From the NCBI GenBank assembly GCA_017624955.1, contig JAGAMA010000001.1, positions 62,001 to 126,000 on the forward strand: a stretch of DNA of 64,000 nt, given 5' to 3'. This document shows positions 12,323 to 59,782 of the stretch, piece after piece (the first letter of the stretch is position 1; the number at the start of each line of letters is the position of its first letter). Source of the stretch: Alistipes sp. (GTDB lineage Bacteria; Bacteroidota; Bacteroidia; Bacteroidales; Rikenellaceae). The notes under the pieces were generated by a model that had not been told where the DNA came from, ran no database searches, and worked only from the letters and a program-made list of their open reading frames with translations. Made by a program: the position numbers and the translations under genes.

Positions 12323-12462
12323 AAAGGGGGCTAAAGGTTGCTAAAGGCGACTAAAGGGAATTAAAGGCGTGAAAGGCATAAAGGGCGTAAAGGGATTTTC
12401 CTTTGCGCTTTTTTAATTTTTCACCCTTAGCGACACTTAGTCTCCTTTAGCAACCTTTATTA
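12323..12462. repeat. TAAAGG-unit array forming a long hairpin
   Basis: Direct units such as GGCTAAAGGTTGCTAAAGGC run for about 70 nt and are answered by complementary CCTTTAGCAACC-type units, so the whole stretch folds back on itself. It lies between the convergent HAD gene and nqrF and probably stops both transcripts. Similar arrays are at 37307-37412, 40332-40432, 44760-44860, 45236-45380 and 58535-58625. Confidence 0.75.
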
Positions 12463-31031: not shown

Positions 31032-31135
31032 GATCTCTTTTTCGAGGTTTAGCGATGCTAATTTACAAAATTTACCGCAAAATGCACGGCATTCGGGAAT
31101 TAATTTGTATTTTTACAAATTAAACAACGCAATCC

Positions 31136-34100: not shown

Positions 34101-34273
34101 TGATTCGTGGCACGGAGGCCGTGGTGGTGGATTATAAGTTTGGCGAAAAGGATGCCTCCACCTACCGTTCGCAGCTGCGCCGCTACGAAAAGCTGTTGCG
34201 CGAAATGGGCTACACGACCGTCAGCGGCTACCTGTGGTATGTCCGACAAGGAAAGATTGAACAAGTGATATAA
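31136..34273 (+). CDS. AddA-like UvrD/REP helicase with C-terminal nuclease
   Basis: A 1045-residue protein with a UvrD-type helicase and a C-terminal nuclease. Walker A is NASAGSGKT at about residues 9-17, Walker B is MIDEFQDTS, helicase motifs include GDIKQSIYRWRGG and LTIHKAKGLE, and the nuclease motif VVVDYKFGEK is near the end. The layout equals AddA/RecB. It faces away from the AddB-like gene across a 104-nt AT-rich gap, an arrangement that differs from the usual addBA operon. Its end is 15 nt before the ABC exporter. Confidence 0.92.
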   Translation: MAVKAKILNASAGSGKTYQLAYNYVRELIKEPAAYRHILAVTFTNKATEEMKSRILKELHRLAANYRSSYRRMLMEDLRLSAEEIGRRAVDARAKILHDYSRFTVLTIDTFFQRILRAFIKELGIDLNYNIELETASILTKSADTLIEQITTNRDLLSWLTRFVEERIEEGKSWDVKEGILSLGGELFKERNRKALLSARSREELSEIVERTTRRAEKSKAELVAAADRFMEELDKASLSVADFPYKYSGFANWPNAISLDREPIPYGKRVLTATEEEKAWGKAGSDSAVMRPTLQPILQQMRSIYDKNLKSWNTATLLRETYRSFALLGDLYDKVQQLCNEQQLMLLSETKYLLAEFVTELDAPFIYEKVGNRFEHFMIDEFQDTSAREWENFLPLLRNALSQTERQAVLLVGDIKQSIYRWRGGDWKILHRDAAQALGTEQTEVVNLKENFRSLEEVVRFNNRIIEKVVAIDNAYLNIQLEEAVEGRTLSPQSALELRDTLQDAYRNAAQEPRRKNRHAGYVSVEEYDEEPPIIERICQLIDLGYRPSDIMILVRGATDGARVATKLLDFKRENCDPRYRFDVMTQEALVIGSAPICGFVMAVMRLALSPDESIHRALYNQYLELPFDAALDEECRQFLREIALLSPMEAFERIVLRYRLDERTQEVAYLQALHNEVITFSVKRIADLQLFITWWEEEGSLKSLSIEESQTTIEILTIHKAKGLEKRVVLIPYCNWPMNPPSNRNIIWAEANEGEAAALGEIPISYRQQMGASGFSEAYYRELVYTHVDNINLLYVALTRAVESLHVFIPEGGEKHIGSLLAAALIDGDRKSHYTFGRFEGPAPKDERRTEEPSEAARSEEPERKPRHLLQTTYPTSETEMLLSFPSERYLAANEEEALSPRNFGILMHQAFEEATDRESIYRAIQQMEQDARLSREEAEELRRQIDQALEDATVAAWFDGSWEEVRTEEVILSSGAKMLHRPDRVMIRGTEAVVVDYKFGEKDASTYRSQLRRYEKLLREMGYTTVSGYLWYVRQGKIEQVI

Positions 34274-34288
34274 CGTACGATATAAGGT

Positions 34289-36866: not shown

Positions 36867-37327
36867 AAATCAGCAACGAAATCTTCTTTGAGGAGGTCGA
36901 GCGACTGCTCGGCGAGGGGTTAGAGGCGGAGTTTCTGCTGCGCGGATTCAGCATGCGCCCCCTGCTGCGCGACGGGCGCGATCGGGTCATTGTAGCCCCC
37001 TGCACGGCTGAAGACCCCCTGGAGGGCGAAGTCTATCTCTTCCGCTATCGGGGTCGTCATTTCCTGCACCGCCTCCACCGCATCGAGGGGGAGGAGCTGG
37101 TGATGCGGGGCGACGGAAATTACCGCCTGGAAGAGCGTTGCAAAGCAACAGATCTCGTGGCACGCCTACGGTGCGTGCGTCGTCCTTCGGGAAAAGTAAT
37201 CGACTGCTCATCACGCAGTTGGCGCACAAAGTCGGCTATCTGGTGCGCACTGCCGGCCATCGTAAGGCGCGTGATTCTGGGCGTACTGCGAAGAGTAAAA
37301 AAACTAACGGGAACTAAAGGAAACTAA
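36863..37327 (+). CDS. S24/S26-type signal peptidase-like protein
   Basis: A 154-residue protein with the catalytic serine motif GFSMRPLLRDG (Ser30) and a second motif LHRLHRIEG followed by RGDGN. The usual lysine of bacterial type I signal peptidases is not seen; a histidine stands there, as in SipW/ER-type enzymes. A hydrophobic segment lies near the C-terminus (ALPAIVRRVILGVL). It is the last gene of the ABC-HprK-like-peptidase operon and might cleave or mature the exported product. The substrate peptide is not in sight. Confidence 0.75.
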   Translation: MKISNEIFFEEVERLLGEGLEAEFLLRGFSMRPLLRDGRDRVIVAPCTAEDPLEGEVYLFRYRGRHFLHRLHRIEGEELVMRGDGNYRLEERCKATDLVARLRCVRRPSGKVIDCSSRSWRTKSAIWCALPAIVRRVILGVLRRVKKLTGTKGN

Positions 37328-37412
37328 AGGAGACTAAGGGGAACTAAAGTTCAACCTACCCCCTTAGCAACCCTTAATAACCCTTAGCTACCCTTAGCAC
37401 CCTTTTCAACTC
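37307..37412. repeat. TAAAGG-unit hairpin
   Basis: AACTAAAGGAAACTAAAGGA and similar units are answered by CCCTTAGCAACCCTTAATAA and CCCTTAGC units. It overlaps the end of the peptidase-like gene and closes that operon. Confidence 0.75.
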
Positions 37413-44629: not shown

Positions 44630-44676
44630 GCAAAAAGCGGAAAGTTTTTCTTTAGAAAAAGGGGCAGTGAGAAAAG

Positions 44677-44752
44677 GTGTCACAGGTGTCACAGGTGTCA
44701 CGGGTGTCACGGGTGTCACGCCCTGTGACACTGTGACAGTGTGACACCCGAG
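44677..44752. repeat. GTGTCAC-unit hairpin, copy 1
   Basis: GGTGTCACAG units repeat five times, followed by the core GTGTCACGCCCTGTGACAC and then GTGACAGTGTGACACC. It folds as one stem. The same core in reverse complement occurs at 45393-45465, so the two copies face each other. Confidence 0.8.
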
Positions 44753-44759
44753 GAATTAA

Positions 44760-44860
44760 AATTAAAGGGCAGCTAAAGGCGACTAAAGGCAACTAAAGGC
44801 AACTAAAGGCGATTAACGCGCCCCCTTAGCAACCTTTAGCCCCCCTTACCACCCCTTCCT
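44760..44860. repeat. TAAAGG-unit hairpin
   Basis: GGCGACTAAAGGCAACTAAA and similar units face CCTTAGCAACCTTTAGCC. It lies just inside the GTGTCAC hairpin. Confidence 0.7.
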
Positions 44861-45235
44861 CCCCCCCCGCAACCGTAAGACTCCCCAAACCACCCGATAG
44901 GCATGTTCAATGATTGTACGATAGCGTGGCCGTGGTTTTACCCACCACACAACACGCTACCCTACACACTACATACGGCACAACACGACAGCCTACGCAA
45001 TACGGCACCGACTTGTCGCGTAGTTACCCAAGGCAACCGTGCTTGCCGTAAGTCTAATAGGGAGAGCCGATAGCGAAGCCTATACACACCTAATATTTAT
45101 AAATAATATTTATATATATTAGTTCTTATATAAGCACATGCAGCGCTATGCAACCAGGCAGCAGTGCTTGCTCACGACCGGACTCGGTGGTGAGCCGTAA
45201 GGAAGGCAAAAGTTCAATGGTTGTACTTTTTGTGT
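44861..45235. other. Gene-free stretch with direct repeat and AT-rich palindrome
   Basis: No credible gene is present. TTCAATGATTGTAC near 44907 and TTCAATGGTTGTAC near 45212 are direct repeats about 305 bp apart, each after a CCGTAAG. Between them, the motif GCCGTAAGTC recurs and an AT-rich near-perfect palindrome (CTAATATTTATAAATA with TATTTATATATATTAG) sits at about 45093-45125. It could be a remnant of a mobile element or a protein-binding region. Confidence 0.4.
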
Positions 45236-45380
45236 AGGCGACTGGAGGGAGCTGAAGGCGACTAAAGGCGACTAAAGGGTGCTAAAGGTTACTAAAGGTT
45301 GCTAAAGGTTGCTAAAGGCGTTCTTTAATAACCCTTAGTCACCCTTAATAACCCTTAGTCTCCCTTAGTCTCCCTTTAAT
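45236..45380. repeat. TAAAGG-unit hairpin
   Basis: GGCGACTAAAGGCGACTAAA and GGTTGCTAAAGG units are answered by ACCCTTAGTCACCCTTAATA and CCCTTAGTC units. It mirrors the array at 44760-44860. Confidence 0.7.
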
Positions 45381-45390
45381 TCTTAATCCC

Positions 45391-45465
45391 AAGGTGTCAC
45401 GGTGTCACGCTGTCACAGGGCGTGACACCTGTTACACCTGTGACACCTGTGACACCTGTGACACT
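45391..45465. repeat. GTGTCAC-unit hairpin, copy 2 (inverted)
   Basis: GGTGTCACGGTGTCACG leads to the core GTCACAGGGCGTGACAC, then CCTGTGACACCTGTGACA units. Its core is the reverse complement of copy 1. It ends about 35 bp before the stop of the S1 gene. Confidence 0.8.
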
Positions 45466-45501
45466 TTCAACGAAAGGCCGCTCAAGGGGGTGGTCGATAA
45501 T

Positions 45502-48213
45502 CTACTTCGGATCGCGGTCGTTACCGAGCAGCGCGACCCACACCACGCGCCTCTCCTGGTCGATCTTGGTGATCCGTGCCCGCAACGGGGCTTTGGGGAG
45601 CAAAAAGCCGCCACCCAAGGCGCGATAACGCGTCATCAGCGCCACGGGGTCCTTCACGCGAATAGAGGCATAATTAATGGTTTCGGAGAGTAAAATAATA
45701 TACTCCTTGCCCGTCGTCGGATCCTTGCGGGCGTGCAGCGTAACATAAATCTCCTGCTTTGCAAGACGTTGCAGGGGATCGGGCAACGTGCGACGGATCG
45801 AGAGCTGATAACTCTCCTTCTCCTCATTCACACCGCTTACGATCACCTCCACGCGGTCGCCCGCCTTATAGCGCGTATTCCAATCCGAGCCGATAAGGCC
45901 CCAGCCCAACTCATGACGCGGAACAAAGCCCCACGCGCCACCATCCAAATTCACACCGTAGCCCTTCGTATAGCTGCGTTGAATCGTGCCCCACACGCGC
46001 GCTCCGATTTTCAACTCGACGGGTTCAGCCGTCGCAATCGGCTGCGGCTCGGGGGCCTCGGAGGGCTCCTCAGCAGGCGCTTCCTGCTCGGCAACGGCCT
46101 CGACAGGAGGTTGCACCTCGGCGACTGCGGCAGCGGCACGCTCGGTCGGTTTTTTCAACAACAGATATTGGATCGAGGGATCGATCTTATCCACCTGCAA
46201 AAGGATGCGATCCCCCTTGGACGGCAGTGGCTCTTTCTCCCACACCTTACCCCTTGTCCACAGGCCCGTCAAGAATCCGCGGCAGCGCACCAACATACTG
46301 TTTACCGCTACGCGCACCACCTCAACCTCCACCTGCTCATCGGGCTGCAGATCACACACCTGATCCCACATCGAATCGATGCGCACGCTACGCCCCATGC
46401 GTGCCACATCCGACACGGGATTGTAGTTCAAACACTTCAAGTCATAGAGCACCTCCCCGACCTGATAAAGTCCCACAAACGAAAAATCGTTATGCAGGCC
46501 GAAGTCGGTACGCGTCAGGGTTGCCGATGCCCCTTGGCAATCCAGCAACAGCGCACTATCGGTCACCTGACGGACCACACCGCGGTAGGAACACCCTACC
46601 TGCAGCGCCGGATGGGGCACACGCGGGATACCGGGGTGCAAACCGGCATTGGTCAGCACGACAGGCATCGTGAAGCTCATTCCGAGCGCAATACACCTCT
46701 CCTCGGCAGGTTCGGCCTCGCCCTCGTCGGAGCTGCAACCCGTCTGCTGATAGTCGGCATACCACGCCTGCAAAATATCCTTCAGGAAATAGTAGTAGTG
46801 GTAATCATCGTAGCGCAGGACATAGTTCGCGCCCTCCTCGGCTACCACCGTAAAGGTCGCCTCATCGCCCTCATGCAGCGGGTAGCGCTCCGTAGCAAGC
46901 GCCACACGGCTCACCCACATCACCTCGGGCGCGGAATCGATCACCTGCACCTGCATCCGATCGCCCACCTTGACCAACAATTTGGGATCCACCTTGCCAA
47001 AGGCGTAAAGATCCTTGCGCAGGCTTGCCTTTCGGCCGCCGGGGGTCTCGAGCAAGATACCCTTATCATTCATGGCCAACACCGTAGCATCCACCACCTC
47101 GGCATCCTCCACGGGCGACACGTCCCAAATCGACGGGAAGGCGATCTGTTCGTTACGATCGATCGTGCGTAAATGTTCGAAGGCTTCGAGGCGTTTTGCG
47201 CCACACTGCCCGGCCGACAACGGAACGACAAACGCCGTTTCGTCGGGTTGCAAAATCGGGGTCATCGAGAAGCTGAAACGCTCCTTATCGGCATCGATAC
47301 CGGTTATATAGGCCGTAAAGGTTTGGGTGCGATCAATATTCTTGCGCTTCGGGAAAATGGCTCGATCCTCGGGTCTGAACCACGCCCAGCCGACACATCC
47401 GCGATACGAGAGCACCGCCAAATTGATCGACTTAAAGAGGCGCACGATGTGGGTCTGCACGGCACTGCCAATCGCCACATTCAGCAACGAGAAATCGGCC
47501 TCGCGCTCGTTGGGAATCGGATAGGAGAACTGGATCATCGTACCCGTAGCGCCATAGGCCAACGCACGCCAACGGCTTCCCACGGGATAGGCCTCGGCAA
47601 GGCTCTCCTTCCCCCACAACGACAACGGATACTCCTTCGTCGAGGCGATATAGCCACGATGGCCACGCCACTCCACCAAGATAGCAAGCGGGATGGGCAG
47701 GTCGCTCTTCACGACCGTGACGACCGCTTCGTTCCACTGCTTGAGGCCGACCTCCTCCAACGTGATGGTTCGCTCGGGAGCGGGATAGACCAAGTGCAGC
47801 TTTTGATTCTCCTTATCGGGCAACACGAGCAGCTCCTCATCGGCCATCAGGCGCAGCGTTTGATCAAATCGAAGCACCTCGCGTTTCATGCGAAACTTAC
47901 GATGCAGGAAGCGCGAAGCCATCGTATTGATCTGCTTGACGCGATCGTACGAATCCCGATACATCGGCATCGGCTGCGGATCCTCCTCCAGCTCCCAGGC
48001 CTGCGACTGATCGATCTCCACACGCTCCTGCTCCTGCTGCTGCTCCACGATCGGCTCGTCGATCTGTATCACCGTTCCGACCTTCTCATGGATCTCCTGC
48101 ACCGCGATCTGCTCCTGCAGGCCAAACGCCACATCAGCCGCCGAATTCGCACTTTTCGACTCGCCTCGGACAACGCCCCAAAACTCTTTGCTCTTCATCC
48201 TATTCAAACTCAT
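45502..48213 (-). CDS. Multi-S1/OB-domain protein, fourth gene of the NACHT operon
   Basis: A 903-residue protein. The last part holds a clear S1 RNA-binding domain at about residues 736-810 (GARVWGTIQRSYTKGYGVNL). Earlier strand-rich segments look like diverged S1/OB barrels, for example VVDATVLAMNDKGILLETPG near residue 370-390 and YRGVVRQVTDSALLLDCQG near 545-565. The N-terminal 100 residues are Gln/Glu-rich and probably disordered; a Pro/Ala/Glu linker (about 695-735) precedes the S1. No nuclease motif was seen. The ATG at 48213 overlaps the giant NTPase gene by 14 nt; another ATG at 48198 is possible. It probably binds RNA. Confidence 0.75.
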   Translation of the reverse strand: MSLNRMKSKEFWGVVRGESKSANSAADVAFGLQEQIAVQEIHEKVGTVIQIDEPIVEQQQEQERVEIDQSQAWELEEDPQPMPMYRDSYDRVKQINTMASRFLHRKFRMKREVLRFDQTLRLMADEELLVLPDKENQKLHLVYPAPERTITLEEVGLKQWNEAVVTVVKSDLPIPLAILVEWRGHRGYIASTKEYPLSLWGKESLAEAYPVGSRWRALAYGATGTMIQFSYPIPNEREADFSLLNVAIGSAVQTHIVRLFKSINLAVLSYRGCVGWAWFRPEDRAIFPKRKNIDRTQTFTAYITGIDADKERFSFSMTPILQPDETAFVVPLSAGQCGAKRLEAFEHLRTIDRNEQIAFPSIWDVSPVEDAEVVDATVLAMNDKGILLETPGGRKASLRKDLYAFGKVDPKLLVKVGDRMQVQVIDSAPEVMWVSRVALATERYPLHEGDEATFTVVAEEGANYVLRYDDYHYYYFLKDILQAWYADYQQTGCSSDEGEAEPAEERCIALGMSFTMPVVLTNAGLHPGIPRVPHPALQVGCSYRGVVRQVTDSALLLDCQGASATLTRTDFGLHNDFSFVGLYQVGEVLYDLKCLNYNPVSDVARMGRSVRIDSMWDQVCDLQPDEQVEVEVVRVAVNSMLVRCRGFLTGLWTRGKVWEKEPLPSKGDRILLQVDKIDPSIQYLLLKKPTERAAAAVAEVQPPVEAVAEQEAPAEEPSEAPEPQPIATAEPVELKIGARVWGTIQRSYTKGYGVNLDGGAWGFVPRHELGWGLIGSDWNTRYKAGDRVEVIVSGVNEEKESYQLSIRRTLPDPLQRLAKQEIYVTLHARKDPTTGKEYIILLSETINYASIRVKDPVALMTRYRALGGGFLLPKAPLRARITKIDQERRVVWVALLGNDRDPK

Positions 48214-51200
48214 TTAAGGATTCAACCATCTCGTTCTTCGCGAACGATTTATTCGACGCTCCGCCTTGCCAATTTTTGGGAGGTGCAGATGGTACATACG
48301 ACACATAATTCACGCGCTTGTTCTCGATCGCAAAGCGCGGCACATAACGGCAGCGATCGCCCACCTTCAGGGCGTGGAACGAAGCCCACTTCCACGAGTT
48401 GGGATCGCCATACTCCTTCGACATGCGCATCGAAACACGCACGTTGGATAGCACATCGTGACCAAGCAGGACGACAAAGCCGTTCTGATCGGTCGTTATC
48501 TGGTCAATCTCGGCCTGACGATAGGCCGACTCGATATAAGACACCCGCAGGGCCAACGGTCGATTCTTATAGCGGACATTATTGTTGCGCGAGGGGAAGA
48601 ACCACACCGAATCGTAGTACGAGGGGGTGTAGTCATCAGCCCCGTAATGGTAGTAGTAATCGACATCCTTCGGGCAGGCCTCCTGATGGCGCATACTATC
48701 GGCGTACGACACCATGGGACGTATATAGGCATCCTGCTGACCATGTTTGACGGTCATCACCAGGCCGCGCAGGTAGCCCAACTTACGCGAAGGTCGATGC
48801 GGCTCGGGCAGGAGCGTCAGCTTGTGGTTATACTCCACCAACACCATATCGCCGCTGCGCAGCTCCCGACCCTTGGGCAGATCACCCGAAACGACCATCC
48901 GCCCGACTAAACGGGGATTTGAATCGGGCACATAGACCGCAGCAAGGGTTGCCGAGGCGTACGACACCACACCCACCATCAGCCGCTGCTCGGGATTGTT
49001 CAGTTGCAGGTAGCGATCCAGGATCAGGTAGGAGCGACTCTTGGCCATAAAGAAGGTAACGAAACTCTCATCGAAGCGATCCACCTCCTTCAACTCGGCG
49101 ATCAACAAATCACAAATCGAGGCGTGGTAACGCTTCGGCGTGGCCACATCGATCAAAGGCGTAATACGAGGTACGCCCACCTTCACGGGTCGGGTGCACG
49201 CCTCATCGACATAGAAATAGAGCGTACCCCGATCGTTCGGACGATGAATCGAGCCATCGGCATCCACCGTACGCAACGTGCAGTAGTGCTCCTGCGCACA
49301 GGCAGCGAGCTGCACGGCAAAGGGCTGTTCAAACTGATCGAGACGATACCACAAGTGGTCGATGCGGTCGGTCGGTCGAGGAATCAGAATCTCCCCTCGG
49401 CCGATCCAACGATACGGCAGCGCCGCCAGGCGATATTGGCGCGCCACGCTCTTCGCACTCTCGGCCTGCTCACGCAATCGATTCACCACCGGATGATGAC
49501 TCCACAGCTCAAAGGTCAATCCCTCGGCCGTCATCCGCTTAATCGACTCCAACGGCTGATCCATCGACACATGCAGCAACTCGTAATGCGCTTCCGAGGG
49601 TGTCGGCACACCATTCAGCGCGAAGATTCGGTCGTTAAAACGCACCTGCTGCGCGGCAAGGGCCTCCATAAAGGCCTCCTTCGACAGCCCCTTGACATTG
49701 GGTTGAATCAACCGCACGCTCTTTTGCTCACCGCGCACGAAGGGAATGGCCTCGTTTGCCTCCCCCACATACATCACACCACTCAACGGCAACGAGCCGA
49801 ACGACTCCGGCAGCTCTCCCTCCAGCACCCACGCTGCACGATGGACATGGGATAAAATATGCATAAAGCGGGTCGGGTGCTCCGCCTCGTGCAGGAAGAG
49901 CCGCGTATAATCGGCATACTTCGGTTGCTTGGGCAGCACCACCCAGACCGTCTTATCGTTAGCCTGGCAGCAGAGAGCCTGTGTCAGTTGATTGCGCAAA
50001 CTGCGCATACCGCGACGAATACGCAGCTTCTCCACCTGCTTGCTGTCCGTTCCGAAGAAACTTACCACGCCCTCCAACGGAACGGCATCATAGTCGATGC
50101 GCTTGACCGACTGCAAGGTCAGGATCGAAAGCTGGTTATTGGGGATCATGTAGCGCCCCATCTCAAAGCGCAGGTAGCAATCCTTCACTTTGCAGCGGGC
50201 ACCATGCAACAGCTGCTTCAAATTGCCCTTCTTCCAAGCCGTGATCCACTCCTCGGAGACGACACGCAGCGTGTGGCTATGCTGATTCGAGATGGCAAAA
50301 TGGTAGGGAATCTGTTGGGGCTGACCCTCGCCATAGAGCAACACCACGCCACACACAGGCAGCGTAACGGCCACCTGCGAACGGAACGTAAGTTCGATAA
50401 AGCCCTGCGTCTGGGGTGCGGACTGCTTCACCACAAAGCGGTTCTCGCCCACCGTGCACTGCAACTCCTCCAACTCGTTGTGCACCGTCTCGGTCAGCAG
50501 CAACAGGTTCTGCTTATCAAATCCTAAAACACTATATTTCAGTTGGTTGTTCTTGTCAATAAAGGCATAGGGCACATCTTTGTTGTTGGTAATACTCAAC
50601 GTACCACTCATCTCAAGTTCACGCGCCACATTCTCCATCTCGACCTCGATGTAGGTCATACGGCGAATCTCATTCAGCAGACCGGCATAGCGCCCCTCCG
50701 TATCATGCTGATCGCCCAGCAGCACACGCGCACCTTTGAGGTGGGCTTTACTCGACTCCAACCACGCAATCTGCCCTTTTTGGAACAGATGCAGGAAGCG
50801 GGCATCGGATGCTTCATCCACCGCCAGGCGCTGCCACTCGTAATCGATCCCGTAACGAGCACCATTTTCGAGTACGCAGATAATCTTACCGCGTTGCGGC
50901 AATACCGTTTCACGCGGGCAGTGCACCTCCAATACGCGCCCCGCGCCATCGGCCATGCGCACACGACTGATCTTGCCTGCGCCCAAGCCGGCAAGGGTAA
51001 ATTTGCGCTGCTCCAACGTGCGCGACAAGACCTTATTCGTACCAAGGCGCAAAACCTTTTCATCCGCCCAACCCAAGATTGTATAGGGGATAGCTATCTG
51101 CGTTTCACGCTGTGCGGCATCGACACGGCTCAAGGTCACACGGCGGAAAAGTTCGGGCGAGTGATAATAGGGCGTACGCACCTCACAATCGGGCAACACA

Positions 51201-54200
51201 CCCACCCCGTCGGCGCCGACCAACAAGCAACGACCATGCACATTGGGCAGGGGATCATCCGCCTGCAGACGCAAGGTCAGGGTGCGATGCGGCTCATAAA
51301 GGGTACGCGACGGTTGCTGCACAAAGCGGCAGGCAATCTCTCCGATTTGCAATGCGCGCTGATTTTTATACCAACCATACACCCGATAGGCCTGTGTTTC
51401 ATTGGTCAAGACAATACGCAAACCATCATCCAGGTATCGTTCGGCCACATAGGGCAACGGCTCAACCTCGCCTTCGGCCATCAACTCGCCTTCGAGCGGC
51501 AGGGTTGTATGCTCCTCAACCGCCTCCAGCCAATAGGTCGAAGTGCGCTCATAGGTCATCTGATCACGCACGACCTCATAGCGCAACACCGCATCGTCCG
51601 CACCGCGGAACAGCCACGCCGATTTGTCGAAATCGCCTTGCAGGTCGGGAATCGAGATCGTAAAGGAGCGGAAGTCGCGCGACAGAATCCGATAGCGCAC
51701 ACCATCCGTCTCCTTCATCTCGGAGAATTGGTATTGACAATCGAGAATCGAGGGATCGAAGTGTTTTTGCTGAATCTCGGCAGGGATATACTGCAACGGG
51801 AAGAGGTCGAGAATGGCAATGGCAAATTCGGTCTTCGACTTTTCCCCTTCGGCCAAGCGATAGATACCCTTCCGATTCCACAAGAAGTCGGCCATCGGAG
51901 CCAGGTCATAGCACTGCCTGAAGAGGAAGAAACGAACCAACCGACGGCGCAACATCATCGGCATCATCTCGATCAGCTCCTCCGAGAAGAGCAGCTCGGC
52001 CACCTGCGGATCCTGCTCCCAGCGACGCAACAATTTCGAGAGTTGCTGGGTGAAGAAGCCCGTCAGCAGCTTCGTTTGAAGGTGTTGGCGGATATAGGCC
52101 GTATTATCGGAATAGAGCAACAGCGTCTGGGCATCGGAGCGAACCTCGAGCCGTGCATCCTGCTCCATCTGCTCGAAGAAGGCGCGACGATCCTTCTCGG
52201 TCAGAGACTGGAACAGCATGCGCTTATAGAGGAAGAGCTCGCTGCTGTAGGTCTTAACCGTACGCCCCGACTTGACCATCGGAAGCTGCTCAATGGCACG
52301 ATTCAACAGCTCATAGAGCGCCTCATAATCGGTCGTCGTGAGCATCATCTCGCGGTAGAGCAAACGGGCCGCAACGAGATTGGGCACACCGATTCCATGC
52401 ATGTTCCATGTCGGGTACAGATCGCGTTCCACCAGCCAGAAGCGCAACCAGAAGCGATCCAGCAACCGCTCGACGATGCGCTCCGAGAGGAGCATACCGA
52501 ACATCGAGAAGAGCTGACGTACCATCGGAAGGCCCTCCTCATAGGTCGGCCTGCTCATTGCATACGCGCGTGCATAATTCAGCACCAACGCCTCCACCAG
52601 ATCGCGTGCCGTGAGTTTGCCTATAACGCTATACCCCGAGCGTTCGCTCTTCGTCAGCTCCTTCTGCAACGGAAGTCGTGCCACGAGGCGCGCGGCCAAC
52701 GGCAGGAGCGGATTCATCGGCGGCACCTCACCCACGCGGACCTCCACATCGTATTTCTCCTCGGCAGAGCGTCGATAGATATGCATAAAGGCCGCATCGG
52801 GTAGTTGGGGCGTTTCGCCCAAGGCCAAGAGATCGCTCACAAAGCTCAGAATCGCTTTCCGCTTGTTGGTCACCAGCTTACCCAGCAGATCGACACACAT
52901 CTGCAACATATCGTAGTGCTGCTCGAAGGCCGTGGCACTATCCACGACGATTTCGCGCAAGAGTTTCTCGGCTTCGGGAGCCTTTGCCGCATTAACCATC
53001 GCCTCGGCATAGCGCTGATGAAGTCGCTTGGCACAATAGAACTCCATGAACGAGTCGTGATAGAAACTCACGGTTTGTGTCACTTCATCGACCTTCAGAA
53101 TCTGCAGACGGGAGAGCAACTGCACCAAATCGCTGGGCCCTTTACCACCGGTACATACATGGCACTTACGGACTACTTCCCGCTCGATTTGGCGACCGTA
53201 GATCTGACTATGCACAGCCAAATCGCCCAACATATTGACACAATCCTCGCGCAGGTCGATCGATTGGCGCAGCTCGGGATCACGCGCCGTATTTTCATTC
53301 TCCAACACCTCGGCAAAGAATCGCATATAGAGCTCGCCTCGGCTGCTGATGCCGTGGGCATCGGCATTGGAGAGCACCTCGACGATCATCTTCAGGTGCA
53401 TCGGATTGGTCGCCAGCTTGGTCAAATCGGCATCGTCATCGATCTTATCGCGGATGGCGCGTTGCCACTCGGGATGCTCGTCGCCATTCGGATTGCTTTG
53501 TGCCAGGAATTGGTCGATGAGCAGACTATTCAACGGAGCAACCTCATACTTGGCACACTCCGAAAAATGGTTGCTGACGCGCGCAAACTCCACGATACGC
53601 CCCGTGAAGAGGTAGTGGTTATTCGGGTATTGACGGACATAATCCAACAATGGGGTCAGCTCCATGCCCTGCTGCAACTCATTCAGACCATCGAACAGGA
53701 AGAGCACACGCCCCTGATCGACCAGCGACTGGAGGTAGTTACCGATTGCCGACTTAAGCTCTTCGCTATCGTACGAACGCTTCAGGCTGGTTACCGCCTC
53801 GAAGAGGTAATCGAAGATCTTCTTGTTGGGGCGCATCTCGCTCACGCGAATCAGCACGGGCAACATCGCCAGATCCGAGAGTGAGTTTTCACGCCAATTG
53901 CAAGCCTCCTCGAGCAGGATGCGGTCGAGCATCGTACTCTTACCCGAACCCGAGCCACCGAGCACACAGCAACAGGCATTTTCGCTAATCACATCGCGCG
54001 GATGGAGCTCCGCCTCTGCCAAAACGACATTGTCGTTTACCTCCTCGCCATTATCATCCTCTTCGTCGTCATCCTCCTTATCGTCCTCTTTCCACTCGAG
54101 GAGCATACTCTCCACCTCGGCTACCAGCTGCTCCTTACGACGGGCTACCGCCTCCTCGATGTGCTCGACATAGGTTTCGCGCACATACTTCTCCGCCTCG

Positions 54201-54940
54201 GCCGTGAGATCTGTCTGCCGACGGGGCGACAGTGTTGTCGTAGGAGCTGTGCCCACCAACGCCTGCAGGGGATCGTACCAATAATCCACTATCGCCAAGA
54301 AGACCGAAAGCAGACAACGATAGACTGCGGACTGATTTTGTTCCAAAATTACAAAGCCATGGTCTTTGATATTACGCGACTCGACACTAACTTTTACAGC
54401 CGATTTTAGCTCTTTTTTGGAGGGATCAACAGCCCCTCTTCGACCCTCAATGGCAGGCAACGCAATATACTTCAAATCCCCATAAGCTGCTACCAATTGG
54501 CCATTGAGCAGCGGGGCCAGAGTCAGTTTGTTGCCATCCACACCGGGCACTCGTTTCGTACCCTCAAGACAAGCGCACTCCTCACCGTCAATCACCATCT
54601 TCCGATCGGCATAGAGTGCCTTATAAAGGCATCGCAGAAACGACTCCAACGTATCAGGAATAGCATCCACCGTGGTGTCCGACATCAAATTATTCCAAAA
54701 AGCCTCATCGCGAAAAGAGGGAACTTTACCTTGAACCTCAAGGCGTTGATCAATACACCAATGCCTGAATCGAGCCAAAAGATCCAACAAATCCTCCACG
54801 GCGTGATCCAAACACCGATCATAAGATTCCAACCTGATTGGCATACGATCATCTTCAAACAAAAGGAACAGTTTCTTCTGCGACAACTCTTTATAGAGGT
54901 CACAGATCTCTTGTAGTTCTTGGGGTGTAGGTCGTTTCAT
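48200..54940 (-). CDS. Giant NACHT-type STAND NTPase
   Basis: A 2246-residue protein. Residues 1-230 are an unrecognised, mostly helical N-terminal region. A charged coiled segment ends in a highly acidic linker (about 282-305). The NTPase follows: Walker A VLGGSGSGKST at about 326-336, Walker B RVLFLFDGLNEL at about 411-422 and a sensor-like YLFTGRIVEF near 443-452, all typical of NACHT. A helical region extends to about residue 1000. The remaining about 1200 residues are rich in beta strands, resembling OB- or S1-like units, without standard LRR, WD40 or TPR repeats. STAND proteins are ligand-triggered switches. The ATG at 54940 is preferred to the TTG at 54973. Confidence 0.82.
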   Translation of the reverse strand: MKRPTPQELQEICDLYKELSQKKLFLLFEDDRMPIRLESYDRCLDHAVEDLLDLLARFRHWCIDQRLEVQGKVPSFRDEAFWNNLMSDTTVDAIPDTLESFLRCLYKALYADRKMVIDGEECACLEGTKRVPGVDGNKLTLAPLLNGQLVAAYGDLKYIALPAIEGRRGAVDPSKKELKSAVKVSVESRNIKDHGFVILEQNQSAVYRCLLSVFLAIVDYWYDPLQALVGTAPTTTLSPRRQTDLTAEAEKYVRETYVEHIEEAVARRKEQLVAEVESMLLEWKEDDKEDDDEEDDNGEEVNDNVVLAEAELHPRDVISENACCCVLGGSGSGKSTMLDRILLEEACNWRENSLSDLAMLPVLIRVSEMRPNKKIFDYLFEAVTSLKRSYDSEELKSAIGNYLQSLVDQGRVLFLFDGLNELQQGMELTPLLDYVRQYPNNHYLFTGRIVEFARVSNHFSECAKYEVAPLNSLLIDQFLAQSNPNGDEHPEWQRAIRDKIDDDADLTKLATNPMHLKMIVEVLSNADAHGISSRGELYMRFFAEVLENENTARDPELRQSIDLREDCVNMLGDLAVHSQIYGRQIEREVVRKCHVCTGGKGPSDLVQLLSRLQILKVDEVTQTVSFYHDSFMEFYCAKRLHQRYAEAMVNAAKAPEAEKLLREIVVDSATAFEQHYDMLQMCVDLLGKLVTNKRKAILSFVSDLLALGETPQLPDAAFMHIYRRSAEEKYDVEVRVGEVPPMNPLLPLAARLVARLPLQKELTKSERSGYSVIGKLTARDLVEALVLNYARAYAMSRPTYEEGLPMVRQLFSMFGMLLSERIVERLLDRFWLRFWLVERDLYPTWNMHGIGVPNLVAARLLYREMMLTTTDYEALYELLNRAIEQLPMVKSGRTVKTYSSELFLYKRMLFQSLTEKDRRAFFEQMEQDARLEVRSDAQTLLLYSDNTAYIRQHLQTKLLTGFFTQQLSKLLRRWEQDPQVAELLFSEELIEMMPMMLRRRLVRFFLFRQCYDLAPMADFLWNRKGIYRLAEGEKSKTEFAIAILDLFPLQYIPAEIQQKHFDPSILDCQYQFSEMKETDGVRYRILSRDFRSFTISIPDLQGDFDKSAWLFRGADDAVLRYEVVRDQMTYERTSTYWLEAVEEHTTLPLEGELMAEGEVEPLPYVAERYLDDGLRIVLTNETQAYRVYGWYKNQRALQIGEIACRFVQQPSRTLYEPHRTLTLRLQADDPLPNVHGRCLLVGADGVGVLPDCEVRTPYYHSPELFRRVTLSRVDAAQRETQIAIPYTILGWADEKVLRLGTNKVLSRTLEQRKFTLAGLGAGKISRVRMADGAGRVLEVHCPRETVLPQRGKIICVLENGARYGIDYEWQRLAVDEASDARFLHLFQKGQIAWLESSKAHLKGARVLLGDQHDTEGRYAGLLNEIRRMTYIEVEMENVARELEMSGTLSITNNKDVPYAFIDKNNQLKYSVLGFDKQNLLLLTETVHNELEELQCTVGENRFVVKQSAPQTQGFIELTFRSQVAVTLPVCGVVLLYGEGQPQQIPYHFAISNQHSHTLRVVSEEWITAWKKGNLKQLLHGARCKVKDCYLRFEMGRYMIPNNQLSILTLQSVKRIDYDAVPLEGVVSFFGTDSKQVEKLRIRRGMRSLRNQLTQALCCQANDKTVWVVLPKQPKYADYTRLFLHEAEHPTRFMHILSHVHRAAWVLEGELPESFGSLPLSGVMYVGEANEAIPFVRGEQKSVRLIQPNVKGLSKEAFMEALAAQQVRFNDRIFALNGVPTPSEAHYELLHVSMDQPLESIKRMTAEGLTFELWSHHPVVNRLREQAESAKSVARQYRLAALPYRWIGRGEILIPRPTDRIDHLWYRLDQFEQPFAVQLAACAQEHYCTLRTVDADGSIHRPNDRGTLYFYVDEACTRPVKVGVPRITPLIDVATPKRYHASICDLLIAELKEVDRFDESFVTFFMAKSRSYLILDRYLQLNNPEQRLMVGVVSYASATLAAVYVPDSNPRLVGRMVVSGDLPKGRELRSGDMVLVEYNHKLTLLPEPHRPSRKLGYLRGLVMTVKHGQQDAYIRPMVSYADSMRHQEACPKDVDYYYHYGADDYTPSYYDSVWFFPSRNNNVRYKNRPLALRVSYIESAYRQAEIDQITTDQNGFVVLLGHDVLSNVRVSMRMSKEYGDPNSWKWASFHALKVGDRCRYVPRFAIENKRVNYVSYVPSAPPKNWQGGASNKSFAKNEMVESLNEFE

Positions 54941-54979
54941 CGGGTCAGTTATTTGACGGTAGGTAGTGATCAAAAAAAG

Positions 54980-55534
54980 TCAGTCGTTATCTCGTATAAA
55001 AAGGTGGGTCTGCCAATAGGGATCGGGCGTTTCACCCGGACGGGACAGCTTCGGGGCTGCTTCGCCCGCAAAGAGCGAAATGAAGGTAAAGGCGGGGGTA
55101 CTCCCCTCCAGGATCAGTTGGCACTCATCGGTCGAAAACATACGCTCGGAAAGCACGGTACGCACCTCGCAACCATCGCGCAATTCGGTGCGAATCGTGG
55201 CGCGCTCCTCCTCGGTCAATGCCTCCTCGGCCACCACACGCGAAGTGCCGATCGGAGCATTCAACCGAAAGCTCAATCGCAGACGACCATCCGCCTCACT
55301 CGCTTGGCTAAATCGGTCGGGGTACTGTGCCACCAAACGGCTTACCGCCTCACGAGGCGAGCGGGCAAACGCGCCATCGAACTTCGAGCCGACACGCCGG
55401 CATTGCTCCTCGATACGGGACTCCTCATAGCCCCCTCGGCGCAACTCCTCAAGCAACGCTTCGTCGGGTTGCTCGAAATGCGACAGGCTATGAAACAAGG
55501 CCCACAGCGGATAGTGGATCGAGATCGGCTCCAT
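54980..55534 (-). CDS. Unknown 184-residue protein of the NACHT operon
   Basis: A soluble protein with helical, charged sequence (for example LLEELRRGGYEESRIEEQC near residues 27-45) followed by strands (GRLRLSFRLNAPIG) and a C-terminal half with FTFISLFAGEAAP. No motif was recognised. It has no signal peptide or membrane helix. It begins 1 nt after the stop of the membrane gene and ends about 40 nt before the NTPase ATG, so it belongs to the operon. It may be an adaptor between the membrane protein and the NTPase, but that is a guess. Confidence 0.65.
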   Translation of the reverse strand: MEPISIHYPLWALFHSLSHFEQPDEALLEELRRGGYEESRIEEQCRRVGSKFDGAFARSPREAVSRLVAQYPDRFSQASEADGRLRLSFRLNAPIGTSRVVAEEALTEEERATIRTELRDGCEVRTVLSERMFSTDECQLILEGSTPAFTFISLFAGEAAPKLSRPGETPDPYWQTHLFIRDND

Positions 55535-55535
55535 G

Positions 55536-56798
55536 TTAAACCTTGCGGTGACGATTGTGATATATAATGTAGAGAATCAGACTGAAGGCGATAAGGGCCA
55601 AACCGACGGCAATGGCACGATACCAGCACGAACCGGTTTCGATGCCACCTGCTTCCGTCAGGAGCGAAGTGCCGTCATAGAGGGTCGAGGCAAGAGTCAG
55701 GAAGGTCAAGAGCACAATCACGCGATTCAATTTGCGCTCCGATACCTGGTTGCGCATCTGCTCCACCTGCTCGATATGTTGATGCAGCGCCTGGCGCTCA
55801 CGCTCCATACCCATACCTCGGTCGATTGCCTCATAGAGGGTCTGCGGCAGGAAGTTGTAGGAGATGTTTGAGAAGTTGTAATAGTGTTCCAGTTCACGAA
55901 TATCGTACATCAACTCCTCGATATTGACCCCCTTACTGCGGAAGCGGCGATTGAAGTAGAAAAGCAGCGTTTTTTGGTAGAGCACATGGATATAGATCAT
56001 CCGGAAATAGCTCTCGCGCCAGGTCCACGAATCGACGGCCGTAAGTTTGGTTGAAAGCATCGTCATCGTATCGAAGAGGGCCAAAGCGCGCCAGTTGCGG
56101 AAAACCGCAATTTTGTGTTGTTTGAGCAAGGATTGCAAATAGGCCGGGTCGGGGGAGTTGCGATCCTCGCTATTATCCACACACCCGATCGGCGCCAATG
56201 CTCCCAACTCATAGAGCAGCGAGTCGTTCGAATCCTTCACCTCGAAGAGCTGAAAGAGTTTCAGTTTATTTCCCGTATCCGTCAGGTCGGTATAGTTGCC
56301 CTTGTGCTCGGGAGTCGTACACAAAGCAAGCAGCGGCTGAAGCGTGGCGAGATACTCCGAAGCCTGCAACCGATCATAGCCATTCACCTCACGCAACCGC
56401 CCGAAGGCCTCGGTCCAGCCATTCAGATCGGCTCCTGCGGCATCTATTTCAAGGGCAAAGAGCACAATACCGAGCGGAAGAAAGTAGAGATGAATCCGCT
56501 CAAAGTCAAACAAAAAGTCACCCGCAGCCAATGTCACGGAGCACCTTTTCCCCACCTCCGCCACCAAGTGGGCGATCTGCTGACCCTTGGATGCAGGGAG
56601 CTGTTTGCGCGGCAAGATGGAATCGACAAAACTCTCGTAGTAGAAACGGCACGAATTGCGATAGGCACTATCGTCCACCGCTTTGGACACCCAACCGGCA
56701 TCGGTTGCCAGCAACGATTCGGGAGTCTGCGCCGTCACCAAGTGACCGCAGAGAAAACCATGCGCATAAGAGGCTGTAATCGAAGTCATAACATCCAT
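55536..56798 (-). CDS. CorA-like protein with two C-terminal membrane helices, first gene of the NACHT operon
   Basis: A 420-residue protein. The first about 320 residues look soluble and helical, then a coiled-coil stretch (about 325-352, HQHIEQVEQMRNQVSERK) leads directly into helix 1 (about 359-376) and, after a short loop, helix 2 (about 395-413) with a basic tail. Long helix, membrane helix, short loop, membrane helix is the layout of CorA magnesium channels. The CorA loop signature GMN is replaced by YDG, so it is not a standard Mg2+ channel. CorA-like proteins are known as membrane effectors in some phage-defence systems. The match is by architecture only. Confidence 0.65.
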   Translation of the reverse strand: MDVMTSITASYAHGFLCGHLVTAQTPESLLATDAGWVSKAVDDSAYRNSCRFYYESFVDSILPRKQLPASKGQQIAHLVAEVGKRCSVTLAAGDFLFDFERIHLYFLPLGIVLFALEIDAAGADLNGWTEAFGRLREVNGYDRLQASEYLATLQPLLALCTTPEHKGNYTDLTDTGNKLKLFQLFEVKDSNDSLLYELGALAPIGCVDNSEDRNSPDPAYLQSLLKQHKIAVFRNWRALALFDTMTMLSTKLTAVDSWTWRESYFRMIYIHVLYQKTLLFYFNRRFRSKGVNIEELMYDIRELEHYYNFSNISYNFLPQTLYEAIDRGMGMERERQALHQHIEQVEQMRNQVSERKLNRVIVLLTFLTLASTLYDGTSLLTEAGGIETGSCWYRAIAVGLALIAFSLILYIIYHNRHRKV

Positions 56799-57124: not shown

Positions 57125-58534
57125 ATGATCATGAGAAAACACGACAACCTCACGACCGACATCTACGCCACGGAGGCAATGCGCGCACAAGCACCCGTAG
57201 AGTGCATTCCCGAGCAGGGCACGACCCCGCAGGTGGCCTATCGCATGGTCAAGGATGAGACCTATGCCGAGACGCGTCCCGAGCTGAACCTCGCCACCTT
57301 CGTCACGACACACATGGACGAGGAGGCAACGCGCCTGATGAACGAGGCGATTGCGATCAACTACATCGACGAAACGGAGTATCCGCGTGTGGCGGTGATG
57401 TGCGGCCGTTGCATCAACATCGTGGCCAACCTCTGGAACACCCCCGAGAAGAGCACCTGGAAGACCGGAGCACTCGGCATCGGTTCGTCGGAGGCCTGCA
57501 TGTTGGGCGGTGTGGCTGCCTGGTTACGCTGGCGCGAGCGGCGCAAGGCGCAGGGCAAGCCGTGCGATAAGCCCAACTTAGTGATGAGTTCGGCCTACCA
57601 GGTCGTGTGGGAGAAGTTCTGCCAGCTGTGGCAGATCGAGCTGCGCACCGTGCCCCTCACACCCGACCACCTGACGCTCGACATCGAGGAGACGATCAAG
57701 CGTTGCGACGAAAACACGATCTGCGTCGTTCCCGTATGCGGGGTGACCTGGACGGGGTTGGACGACGATGTGGAGGCACTCGACCGCGCCCTCACGAAGT
57801 ACCACAAGGAGTCGGGCAACGATATCCCGATCCATGTCGATGCCGCCTCGGGAGGCTTCATCCTCCCCTTCCTCAAACCCCACAAGAAGTGGGACTTCCG
57901 CCTCGACCGCGTCCTCTCGATCTCCACTTCGGGACACAAATACGGCCTGGTCTATCCGGGTCTTGGATGGGTCATCTGGAAGGATAAAAAGTACCTCCCG
58001 AAGGAGATGTCCTTCTCGGTCAATTACCTCGGTGCCTCGATTACGCAGGTGGGGCTCAACTTCTCACGCCCTGCCGCGCAAATCTTGGGGCAGTACTACA
58101 ACTTCATCCGCTACGGGCGCGAGGGCTACTGCGCCATTCAGCAGGCAGCCATGGAGGTTGCCGAGTATTGCCACACGGAGATTGGCAAGATGAAGTGCTT
58201 TGCCAACTACTCCGAGAAGGTCGAGAATCCGCTCTTTATCTGGAAGATGTGCTCGACCTACGAGAAGACAGCCAAATGGACCCTCTTCGACCTGCAGGAC
58301 AAGCTCAAGCAGAGCGGTTGGATGGTCCCCGCCTACACGATGCCGGCCAACATCCAGCAGACGGTCGTCATGCGCGTTGTGGTGCGCCACGGCTTCTCGC
58401 GCGACATGGCCGAGGAGCTGCTCACCGATATCCGCAATGCCGTCGCAGAGTTCGAGGCGCTGAAGTACCCCACCACCTCACGCCTCAAATTCGAGCACGA
58501 GGAGAAGCAGTGCGGTAAGGTATATACACATTAA
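57125..58534 (+). CDS. gadB: Glutamate decarboxylase
   Basis: A 469-residue PLP enzyme. It shows HVDAASGGFILPF at about residues 239-251, with the PLP-binding lysine in STSGHKYGLVYPG near residue 272. The family turns glutamate into GABA and CO2, consuming a proton, and in gut Bacteroidetes supports acid resistance and GABA output. No glutamate/GABA antiporter or glutaminase is adjacent here, unlike many gad loci. The ATG at 57131 two codons later is also possible. It stands between the two inverted copies of the meaB 5' region. Confidence 0.95.
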   Translation: MIMRKHDNLTTDIYATEAMRAQAPVECIPEQGTTPQVAYRMVKDETYAETRPELNLATFVTTHMDEEATRLMNEAIAINYIDETEYPRVAVMCGRCINIVANLWNTPEKSTWKTGALGIGSSEACMLGGVAAWLRWRERRKAQGKPCDKPNLVMSSAYQVVWEKFCQLWQIELRTVPLTPDHLTLDIEETIKRCDENTICVVPVCGVTWTGLDDDVEALDRALTKYHKESGNDIPIHVDAASGGFILPFLKPHKKWDFRLDRVLSISTSGHKYGLVYPGLGWVIWKDKKYLPKEMSFSVNYLGASITQVGLNFSRPAAQILGQYYNFIRYGREGYCAIQQAAMEVAEYCHTEIGKMKCFANYSEKVENPLFIWKMCSTYEKTAKWTLFDLQDKLKQSGWMVPAYTMPANIQQTVVMRVVVRHGFSRDMAEELLTDIRNAVAEFEALKYPTTSRLKFEHEEKQCGKVYTH

Positions 58535-58625
58535 CGGAGGCTAAAGGCTATTAAAGGCAGCTAAAGGCGTGAAGGGTTTTTCCCTTTGCGCCTTTTTTGC
58601 CCTTTTCGCCCTTTTCTCTTTCGCC
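58535..58625. repeat. TAAAGG-unit hairpin after gadB
   Basis: GGCTAAAGGCTATTAAAGGC and GCTAAAGGCG units are answered by TTTGCGCCTTTTTTGCCC and TTTCGCCCTTTT. It likely terminates gadB before the meaB promoter. Confidence 0.65.
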
Positions 58626-58708
58626 TTTCAACTTCTTTTGCTATTTTTGCATAGCAAAAAAGCAATACTATGTCTTTCACGAAGATCAACCACTACGAAC
58701 ACGAATAC
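58625..58708 (+). repeat. meaB promoter and 5' codons, plus-strand partner of the inverted copy
   Basis: This is the original for the diverged copy at 56889-56964. It covers the -7 box TATTTTTG at 58642-58649, a palindromic TTTTGCTATT and AGCAAAAAAGC, and the first dozen codons of meaB. Confidence 0.8.
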
Positions 58709-59782
58709 CTCGACCATCACCACGACTCGGCCTTGCAGGTCACGGAAGGTGTCGAGGATCAGCCCGTTGTAAACCCCTACCTCAAGCGCCGCAAGAAGCG
58801 CCAGCTCTCGACCGAAGAGTATATCGAGGGTATCCTGAAGGGCGATATCACGATTCTTTCGCGCGCCATCACGCTCATCGAGAGCTCCAACCCTGCCCAC
58901 TACGCCCAGGCGCAGGAGATCATCGAGGGGTGTCTGCCCTATGCCGGCAAGTCGATCCGCATCGGCATCACAGGTGTTCCGGGCGCCGGTAAATCGACCT
59001 GGATCGAGGCCGTGGGTAACATGGTGACCCGCCTGAAGCACAAGCTGGCCGTGCTGGCCATCGACCCCTCGTCGGAGCGTTCGGGTGGTTCGATTCTGGG
59101 CGACAAGACCCGCATGACCACCATCACGACCAACCCCGACATCTTTGTCCGCCCCTCCCCCTCGGCAGGTTCGCTGGGCGGCGTGGCGCGCAAGACACGC
59201 GAGACGATCGTGCTCTGCGAGGCGGCAGGTTTCGATGTGATCTTCATCGAGACGGTGGGTGTCGGTCAATCCGAGACGGCCGTACACTCGATGGTCGATA
59301 TGTTCCTGCTGTTGCAGATTTCGGGTGCCGGAGATGACCTGCAAGGCATCAAGCGCGGCATTATGGAGATGGCCGACCTGATGGTCATCACGAAGGCCGA
59401 CGGCGAGAATATCCACAAGGCGGAGCTGGCGCGTGTGCAGTATCAGGGTGCCCTGCGCCTCTTCCCGATGCCCGAGTCGGGGATGCGCCCCGAGGTTTAC
59501 TGCTGCTCGTCGGTGGCCGAGACGGGATTGGAGGAGGTATGGAAGGGGGTCGAGAACTACATCGACCACATCCAGGCCAACGGCTACTTCCGCCACAACC
59601 GCAACCGCCAAAACAAGTATTGGATGTACGAGACAATCAACGAGGCGCTCAAGTCGTCGTTCTACCACAACCCCACGATTGAGCCGCTGATTGCCGAGAT
59701 GGAGGCGCGCGTGCTGGAGGAGAAGACCTCGTCGTTCACCGCCGCACACGAACTGCTCGACACCTACTTTGCTCAAAAATAG
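58670..59782 (+). CDS. meaB: Methylmalonyl-CoA mutase-associated GTPase MeaB
   Basis: A 370-residue G3E-family GTPase. Walker A is GVPGAGKS at about residues 101-108; other G motifs are IDPSSERSGGSILGDKTRM, IETVGVGQSE and TKADGEN. MeaB protects and reloads the B12-dependent methylmalonyl-CoA mutase. The mutase genes are not in this window, but the epimerase and decarboxylase of the same pathway lie 14 kb to the left, beyond the NACHT operon. It is followed 15 nt later by the steroid-reductase-like operon. Confidence 0.95.
   Translation: MSFTKINHYEHEYLDHHHDSALQVTEGVEDQPVVNPYLKRRKKRQLSTEEYIEGILKGDITILSRAITLIESSNPAHYAQAQEIIEGCLPYAGKSIRIGITGVPGAGKSTWIEAVGNMVTRLKHKLAVLAIDPSSERSGGSILGDKTRMTTITTNPDIFVRPSPSAGSLGGVARKTRETIVLCEAAGFDVIFIETVGVGQSETAVHSMVDMFLLLQISGAGDDLQGIKRGIMEMADLMVITKADGENIHKAELARVQYQGALRLFPMPESGMRPEVYCCSSVAETGLEEVWKGVENYIDHIQANGYFRHNRNRQNKYWMYETINEALKSSFYHNPTIEPLIAEMEARVLEEKTSSFTAAHELLDTYFAQK

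Follow-up and report, generated by a model that had tools for sequence, protein, structure and literature searches.

What might a NACHT NTPase of 2246 residues be doing in one operon with a CorA-like membrane protein? The question is raised by a stretch of 64,000 nucleotides (nt) from Alistipes sp. (contig JAGAMA010000001.1 of assembly GCA_017624955.1, positions 62,001 to 126,000; hereafter the window), whose 2.1-Mb assembly belongs to the same genus as Alistipes sp. Marseille-P5061 (G845). Four genes on the (-) strand follow one another in the transcription order CorA-like (420 residues), small (184), NACHT (2246) and S1 (903). CorA-like and small genes are 1 nt apart, small and NACHT genes 39 nt apart, and NACHT and S1 genes overlap by 14 nt. 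Position, order and spacing are those of a preliminary description made from the sequence, which gave about 40 nt for the 39. We read the set, with a probability of roughly 0.6, as an abortive-infection operon of the bacterial NLR type (STAND/NACHT) whose membrane effector is a CorA of the CRISPR type; judged from its genes, it is probably anti-phage. The features, in window positions, are these.

55536..56798 (-): gene 1, CorA-like membrane protein of 420 residues, a predicted membrane effector (PADLOC CorA models; the nearest of 25 compared CorA proteins lies in a type III-A CRISPR locus)
54980..55534 (-): gene 2, small CorA-partner protein of 184 residues, of no known family (directly after CorA in 18 of 20 testable loci)
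48200..54940 (-): gene 3, NACHT (STAND) NTPase of 2246 residues (PF05729; G008 homologue 45% identical)
53504..53971 (-): residues 324-479 of the gene 3 protein, its NACHT domain (PF05729); Walker A occupies 328-336
54359..54376 (-): RNx3H motif of HEPN type (R189-N190-x3-H194) towards the N-terminus of the gene 3 protein, a candidate RNase site (present in both copies amid a variable stretch)
45502..48213 (-): gene 4, S1-domain protein of 903 residues, a predicted RNA-binding accessory sensor (one PF00575; G008 partner 30% identical)
45793..46014 (-): S1 domain of gene 4, residues 734-807 (PF00575)
54251..55144 (-): block spanning the end of gene 2 and NACHT up to residue 230, with interspecies similarity above the rest of the operon (blastn and fourfold sites); possibly a recombination tract or a constant module

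A second copy and an empty site

The four-gene set is more than a chance neighbourhood, since a second species, Rikenellaceae bacterium S16M_St_17_sub (G008), carries all four genes in the same order. Profile searches of the genus agree that they travel as one unit, as had been proposed: of 180 genomes, two match the NACHT C-terminal profile, each carrying the complete gene set at the same chromosomal site, and of 91 searched for the S1 protein, two have it. A search of 61 genomes for the full-length NACHT protein gave two (the window's own and G008 included), and among 393 genomes of the order only the window's own had it. That genome was likewise the single match of the NACHT N-terminal profile among 296 of the phylum, where an early two-row CorA profile matched 2 of 395.

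In both species the operon adjoins the gene for methylmalonyl-CoA epimerase (MCE); the names of this gene and of the flanking MeaB and GadB were assigned from translations. In G008 the distance from MeaB to CorA is 18 nt. With MCE alone serving as a rough clock of kinship, its product is 98% identical to the window's in three genomes (G020, G033 and G024) and 96% in G008. The site is empty in two of these close sisters, MeaB and MCE being separated, from stop to start codon, by 274 nt in G020 and 233 nt in G033 with nothing between, so that the patchy distribution anticipated in the preliminary description is indeed seen. G024 has a different stretch upstream of MCE and likewise lacks the operon. 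None of the operon genes occurs in the fetched 12-16.5 kb stretches of 20 genomes; MeaB is present in 19 of them, in 17 of these in the orientation opposite to that of G020 and G033. With respect to MCE, the window's own GadB-MeaB pair (57125-59782) has the opposite orientation to that in G020, G033 and G008; across the genus the orientation of MeaB varies. The pattern at the site could be accounted for either by a gain in two lineages or by a loss in the sisters.

Between the window and G008 the operon proteins are 60% (CorA), 63% (small), 45% (NACHT) and 30% (S1) identical, and seven flanking proteins 81-98%; four more flanking genes have no counterpart within 40 kb of G008 sequence. The divergence of the NACHT protein is uneven along its length. 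Identity is 76-85% over residues 1-200 (85% for 101-200), 34-36% over residues 1051-2246, and 22-39% in windows within residues 1101-1900. A constant switch end coupled to a fast-changing sensor end would be the pattern of a recognition protein.

A 991-nt stretch across the junction of the small gene and the N-terminal part of NACHT shows 86% DNA identity by blastn and covers the block 54251..55144. Fourfold sites differ at 1 of 33 positions across small residues 131-184 plus NACHT residues 1-18, and at 14 of 76 across NACHT residues 19-230. The flanks differ at 14 of 58 (MCE), 60 of 166 (MeaB) and 79 of 191 (GadB) such sites, and the other NACHT bins at about 51-63%. Because differences are so few by comparison with the flanks and the other NACHT bins, at least the core of the block looks to have undergone exchange or homogenisation since the two species separated; constraint acting on the DNA itself is a conceivable alternative cause. 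Promoter and terminator scans gave values not exceeding those of shuffled sequence.

A CorA/small cassette and the CRISPR and STAND links of CorA

The membrane protein is CorA-like, as first described, with PADLOC matches to PDLC01174 (E 1.5e-9) and PDLC01043 (E 1.5e-7). Kyte-Doolittle windows above 1.6 start at residues 390-397, near the C-terminus, and at residues 102-105, and no second C-terminal hydrophobic segment rises above 1.6; the 'two-helix' part of the description therefore rests on CorA homology. A search of genome contigs with three CorA proteins gave 21 loci, one of them (L008) being G008. The small gene stands directly after CorA, touching, overlapping or a few bases off, in 18 of 20 testable loci, L013 and L019 being the exceptions. 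This count leaves out L028, whose contig ends inside CorA, and includes L021 and L026 with partial CorA genes and L012 with a small gene truncated where its sequence ends; L015 and L007 (G469) are one and the same place. The hosts of the cassette are mostly Bacteroidota and Chlorobiota, two records having no phylum name. Only at L008 among the surveyed loci do NACHT and S1 genes stand beside the cassette; in 6 of the 18 cassette loci the sequence ends 1.4 kb or less from the small gene, and a NACHT gene farther on is possible there.

A tree of 25 CorA proteins, which carried a long-branch warning elsewhere in its topology, groups the window and G008 with L009 (100/99), from Alistipes sp. Marseille-P5061. 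At L009 the CorA/small cassette follows csm5 by 55 nt in a type III-A CRISPR locus, in which PADLOC recognises Cas10 (E 9.6e-69), Csm2, Csm3, Csm5 and a Csx1/CARF-HEPN protein, and downstream of which lie four copies of a 27-nt repeat spaced by 114, 72 and 70 nt. The suggestion that the membrane protein belongs to a family used in defence is thus upheld, both by the CorA models and by this relative.

CorA genes are also found with another kind of partner. The CorA profile matches 9 of the 180 genus genomes and the small gene occurs in 3 (the window's, G008 and G845). In five of the six further genomes with CorA (L087-L091) it stands head to head with a large gene for a STAND protein; these STAND products are 35-46% identical to the STAND protein directly after CorA in L013; in the sixth, L092, CorA stands without small or STAND gene in the fetched stretch. 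The five pairs occupy three different places, as judged by eye from their neighbours. The STAND protein of L013, the only one of the six scanned with PADLOC, matches Avs2 models (best E 9.6e-7), and three from L087-L091 have sub-threshold NACHT or NPHP3-type matches in Pfam. In the tree these STAND-linked CorA proteins and that of L092 form one clade (93/98) neighbouring that of the window; its genes have no small gene with them and stand beside STAND NTPases in 6 of 7 loci. Counting the two NACHT/S1 operons, the five divergent pairs and L013, CorA is next to or in an operon with a STAND/NACHT gene in eight loci. Neither the CorA/small cassette nor its type III CRISPR and STAND links, nor the RNx3H motif discussed below, figured in the preliminary description. 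Elsewhere in the survey, STAND-like, NPHP3-type or TPR proteins were seen within about 10 kb of the cassette in L011, L019, L020 and L023. By eye, the cassette of several Flavobacteriales (L007, L015, L016, L020-L024) is followed by a conserved outer-membrane-like protein (DUF481 in L007), and in L007/L015 a DUF6150/SH3 protein lies upstream of it.

The nearest relative of one such CRISPR CorA turning up with the same partner gene in a NACHT operon, together with a neighbouring clade beside STAND NTPases, suggests that the CorA channel is a general immune effector, and that a single membrane effector may work for two immune sensors of very different kinds. We suggest tentatively, and at rather less than even odds, that CorA and the small protein form an exchangeable membrane-effector cassette for type III CRISPR and STAND/NACHT sensors, in which NACHT has replaced Cas10 and the small protein would be a new kind of partner that licenses CorA or removes the messenger, perhaps as an RNase A-like phosphodiesterase. 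If so, adaptive and NLR-type bacterial immunity would share one ligand-gated channel and one off-switch. The operon makes CorA opening without Cas10, like the role of the partner protein, testable.

How would such a channel be opened? In the published work consulted, CorA immune effectors are described as activated by Cas10-made messengers (PMC10600005, PMC11229360). The type III effector binds SAM-AMP, and in plasmid challenge needs a SAM-AMP-degrading partner (PMC10600005, PMC12255297). The Bacteroides fragilis Cmr system (PMC10600005) resembles the window in that its CorA membrane protein has a large domain in the cytosol and is encoded next to a partner, and the close relative of the window's CorA within L009 adds to the likeness. 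It differs in that the window has no convincing Cas10, an unassigned small protein as the partner and a NACHT protein instead of a CRISPR complex. The published survey of type III CorA used a cut-off of E 1e-20, and the scores of the window's CorA are weaker here, the databases being different.

Carried over to the window, this would mean that CorA is opened by a nucleotide messenger (SAM-AMP-like or cyclic oligoadenylate-like) which NACHT makes or triggers and which the small protein degrades. The type III-A locus of the nearest CorA relative, with its Cas10, speaks for such a scheme, as do the position of the small protein in the gene slot that beside other CorA effectors holds NrN, DEDD or SAM-AMP lyase (PMC10600005) and the invariance of R136, K178 and K180 of the cytosolic part across 18 aligned CorA rows. 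On the other side, Pfam and NCBIfam find no nucleotidyltransferase domain in any of the four proteins, and some published CorA effectors have no degrading partner and may use another messenger (PMC11229360). Nor is there a Cas10 gene beside the operon. One Cas10 model finds strong matches (E 1.2e-65 or better) in G845 (1.3e-67), G874 and G034, compared with only E 1.3e-4, on model positions 4-83 and in open frames of about 520 residues, in G008 and the window's genome. As seven others of the ten genomes give a weak match of the same kind and 9 of 14 control genomes match too, we infer a cross-hit to an HD-domain protein. Cas10 is likely absent from both genomes, though not certainly, because the assemblies are 93.5% (the window's) and 85% (G008) complete. 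On balance we consider the messenger scheme somewhat unlikely.

The small protein itself gives few clues. Its best Pfam match among 16 members is DUF7626, in one member (E 9.2e-4), and the best PHROG match has E 0.01; for NrN, DEDD or SAM-AMP lyase, no matching Pfam family was found in it. AlphaFold gives a confident fold (mean predicted local distance difference test, pLDDT, 92.3), for which the best Foldseek match is 4fbd_B, a Toxoplasma hypothetical protein (E 1.5e-3, TM-score 0.45), and the best in a viral library has E 0.019. By eye, the small proteins share an N-terminal His, [AG]SxF (S-x-F in the window) and a final T-x-[FY]-P, in that order. This order of motifs pointed to an RNase A-like origin, which is our speculation here and was not borne out by profile: PF18431, an RNase A-like bacterial domain, was not among the Pfam matches of the 16 members, and alignment with hhalign to one PF18431 member, a weak test with a single sequence, gave E 0.17 (local) and 0.8 (global).

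The NACHT NTPase and its S1 partner

Gene 3 encodes 2246 residues counted from the ATG, a TTG 33 nt upstream lying likewise in the open frame. PF05729 matches residues 324-479 with E 2.1e-10 and 41.1 bits (cut-off 26.7) and the G008 protein with E 5.4e-11. Walker A reads GGSGSGKST in the window and GASGSGKST in G008, and FDGLNE is intact in both known copies. With PF05729, an intact Walker A and a NACHT-type Walker B, the protein is a NACHT STAND NTPase, and the preliminary description was right about its core, which is neither degenerate nor that of a known housekeeping family; nor is the operon universal among relatives at the same place. No Avs model matches the protein, PADLOC giving only mad3 (E 0.0068) and mad8 (E 0.038). 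Two-sequence profiles found no internal repeats in the C-terminal region. Its supposed resemblance to the S1 partner, part of the original proposal, finds no support in hhalign with such profiles (E 0.42).

The multi-S1 reading of the partner protein is likewise not supported. The S1 protein has one detectable PF00575 domain, at residues 734-807 (E 4.9e-14), a region which NCBIfam ribosomal S1 models match far below their cut-offs. Self-comparison gives a weak repeat signal (best off-diagonal E 0.0098), and a model built from the two detected S1 domains finds no convincing second copy; 'multi-S1' is thus unproven, one S1 domain being detectable.

At the N-terminus, R189, N190 and H194 (RNx3H) are common to the window and G008 where neighbouring residues differ, and we take this to be a HEPN-type motif (R-x4-6-H within a four-helix bundle). 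It raises the alternative that NACHT is itself the executioner, an N-terminal HEPN RNase cleaving RNA on oligomerisation, with CorA and the small protein as a second, separate effector arm. Retention of the motif in both NACHT proteins argues for this, and RNxYxGH is found ahead of the NTPase in all six STAND proteins beside other CorA genes. Against it, Pfam finds no HEPN family in the region at E up to 10, its comparison with the N-terminal regions of the CorA-linked STAND proteins shows no similarity (hhalign E 0.54), the fold prediction for the region has a mean pLDDT of 36, and a six-residue motif in two sequences may be chance. With the motif present and the profile tests negative, HEPN identity is unproven, and we hold the executioner scheme to be unlikely.

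Among known systems, the architecture is compatible with the bNACHT antiphage proteins (for example bNACHT25). These too have a central NACHT domain with intact nucleotide-binding motifs, extended at the N-terminus and followed by a long C-terminal region, and are rare and patchy; unlike them, the window has a C-terminal region of about 1,700 residues without recognised repeats, and separate CorA, small and S1 genes in the operon. The CorA-adjacent STAND proteins (L087-L091 and L013) share with it a STAND beside CorA of the same superfamily and an N-terminal RN...H motif. They differ in being head to head with CorA (five) or in tandem (L013), with no small or S1 gene in the fetched stretches, and in the Avs2 match of L013, the window's NACHT having no Avs match and an N-terminus without profile similarity to theirs. 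Ternary conflict systems (TERNS3 and others; PMC8195603) are likewise predicted multi-gene, NTPase-controlled counter-invader systems, some with S1; the window's Pfam matches include no MoxR-vWA pair or effector-associated domain. As had been supposed, Pfam, PADLOC and NCBIfam scans recognise no named system in the set, and no PADLOC or NCBIfam model assigns the NACHT, small or S1 protein to one. No described link of CorA to NACHT, bNACHT, STAND or Avs was found in the titles and abstract beginnings of open-licence literature, and in PMC10910872 a legend on CRISPR-associated genes names CorA and NACHT under different panels. This suggests that a bacterial operon of NLR type whose effector comes from the sphere of type III CRISPR is undescribed.

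How the operon may act, and its surroundings

In an abortive-infection operon of this kind, an infection product would be recognised by the roughly 1,700 C-terminal residues of NACHT together with the S1 protein, a co-sensor that would bind RNA or ribonucleoprotein. The NACHT core would then bind ATP and oligomerise, and would switch on the CorA-family protein, taking the place of Cas10 as trigger either by contact or through a messenger. Permeabilisation or depolarisation of the inner membrane would follow, and the infected cell would be stopped. The small protein might license or restrain CorA, or remove the activating ligand, as NrN, DEDD or SAM-AMP lyase do for CorA of the B. fragilis type; a HEPN-like N-terminal domain of NACHT may add RNA cleavage.

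Several points weigh against this interpretation. Only two copies are known, so that all conservation patterns are drawn from one pair, and their shared site could reflect old vertical inheritance and loss instead of mobility. The N- and C-terminal regions of NACHT match no recognised family, and an AlphaFold model of residues 1-730, made from two sequences, had the low mean pLDDT given above and was left unused. Foldseek gave nothing decisive for the small protein in the PDB or the viral library. PADLOC scores for CorA are modest in the window, weaker for L009 (E 9.5e-6) and absent for L013, placing this CorA family at the edge of the PADLOC models. No relatives were found of CorA on plasmids and viral contigs, of NACHT on plasmids, phages and viral contigs, or of the small protein in phages, which for the small protein leaves plasmids and viral contigs, and for S1 all of these, outside the search. 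The small gene is not universal, being missing both where CorA is linked to STAND genes and at L092, where CorA is alone. Finally, most CorA/small cassettes have no NACHT gene in reach, and CorA is therefore not dedicated to NACHT.

This last point, with the solitary CorA of L092, also favours a reading of CorA and the small gene as a toxin-antitoxin-like or ion-homeostasis cassette that landed beside NACHT/S1 by chance and is not functionally coupled to them. The count of cassettes without NACHT/S1 holds where enough DNA is covered. Spacings of 1 and 39 nt, a gene order kept in a second species despite protein identities of only 30-63%, and the repeated occurrence of the neighbouring CorA clade next to STAND genes, in several places, make such independence improbable. 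Still less probable is a housekeeping or developmental NACHT regulator with no part in immunity, which the ordinary metabolic genes around the operon and the absence of PADLOC matches among the nearest flanking proteins scanned would suit, but which sits badly with an operon absent from nearly the whole genus, diverging far more than its neighbours and sharing an effector family with CRISPR.

The surroundings were scanned for signs of a defence island, a setting the preliminary description had thought worth checking. None was seen: of ten further window proteins compared with PADLOC at E 1e-5, seven had no match, and the three that did lie at about 28-36 kb.

An imperfect inverted repeat of 184 nt (44674-45467) separates the operon from MCE; its arms are 78% complementary and 426 nt apart, and it is itself built of short repeats with units of 9 and 10 nt. 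DNA similarity to the MCE leader of G033 ends at 44664, just before it. The 10-nt unit GACTAAAGGC and its variants occur at 12339-12367, 37312-37340, 44771-44809, 45250-45370 and 58539-58557; a two-unit pattern allowing up to 3 mismatches has 12 matches in the window, compared with a mean of 0.00 in shuffles. These repeats are apparently a dispersed minisatellite. The three proteins with PADLOC matches are encoded within 28170-36010, where divergent open reading frames give Cas4-like and UvrD/GajB-like matches, probably an AddAB-type recombination pair, and are followed by a further frame (34289-36010) that matches mad3 (E 4.5e-24) and mad8.

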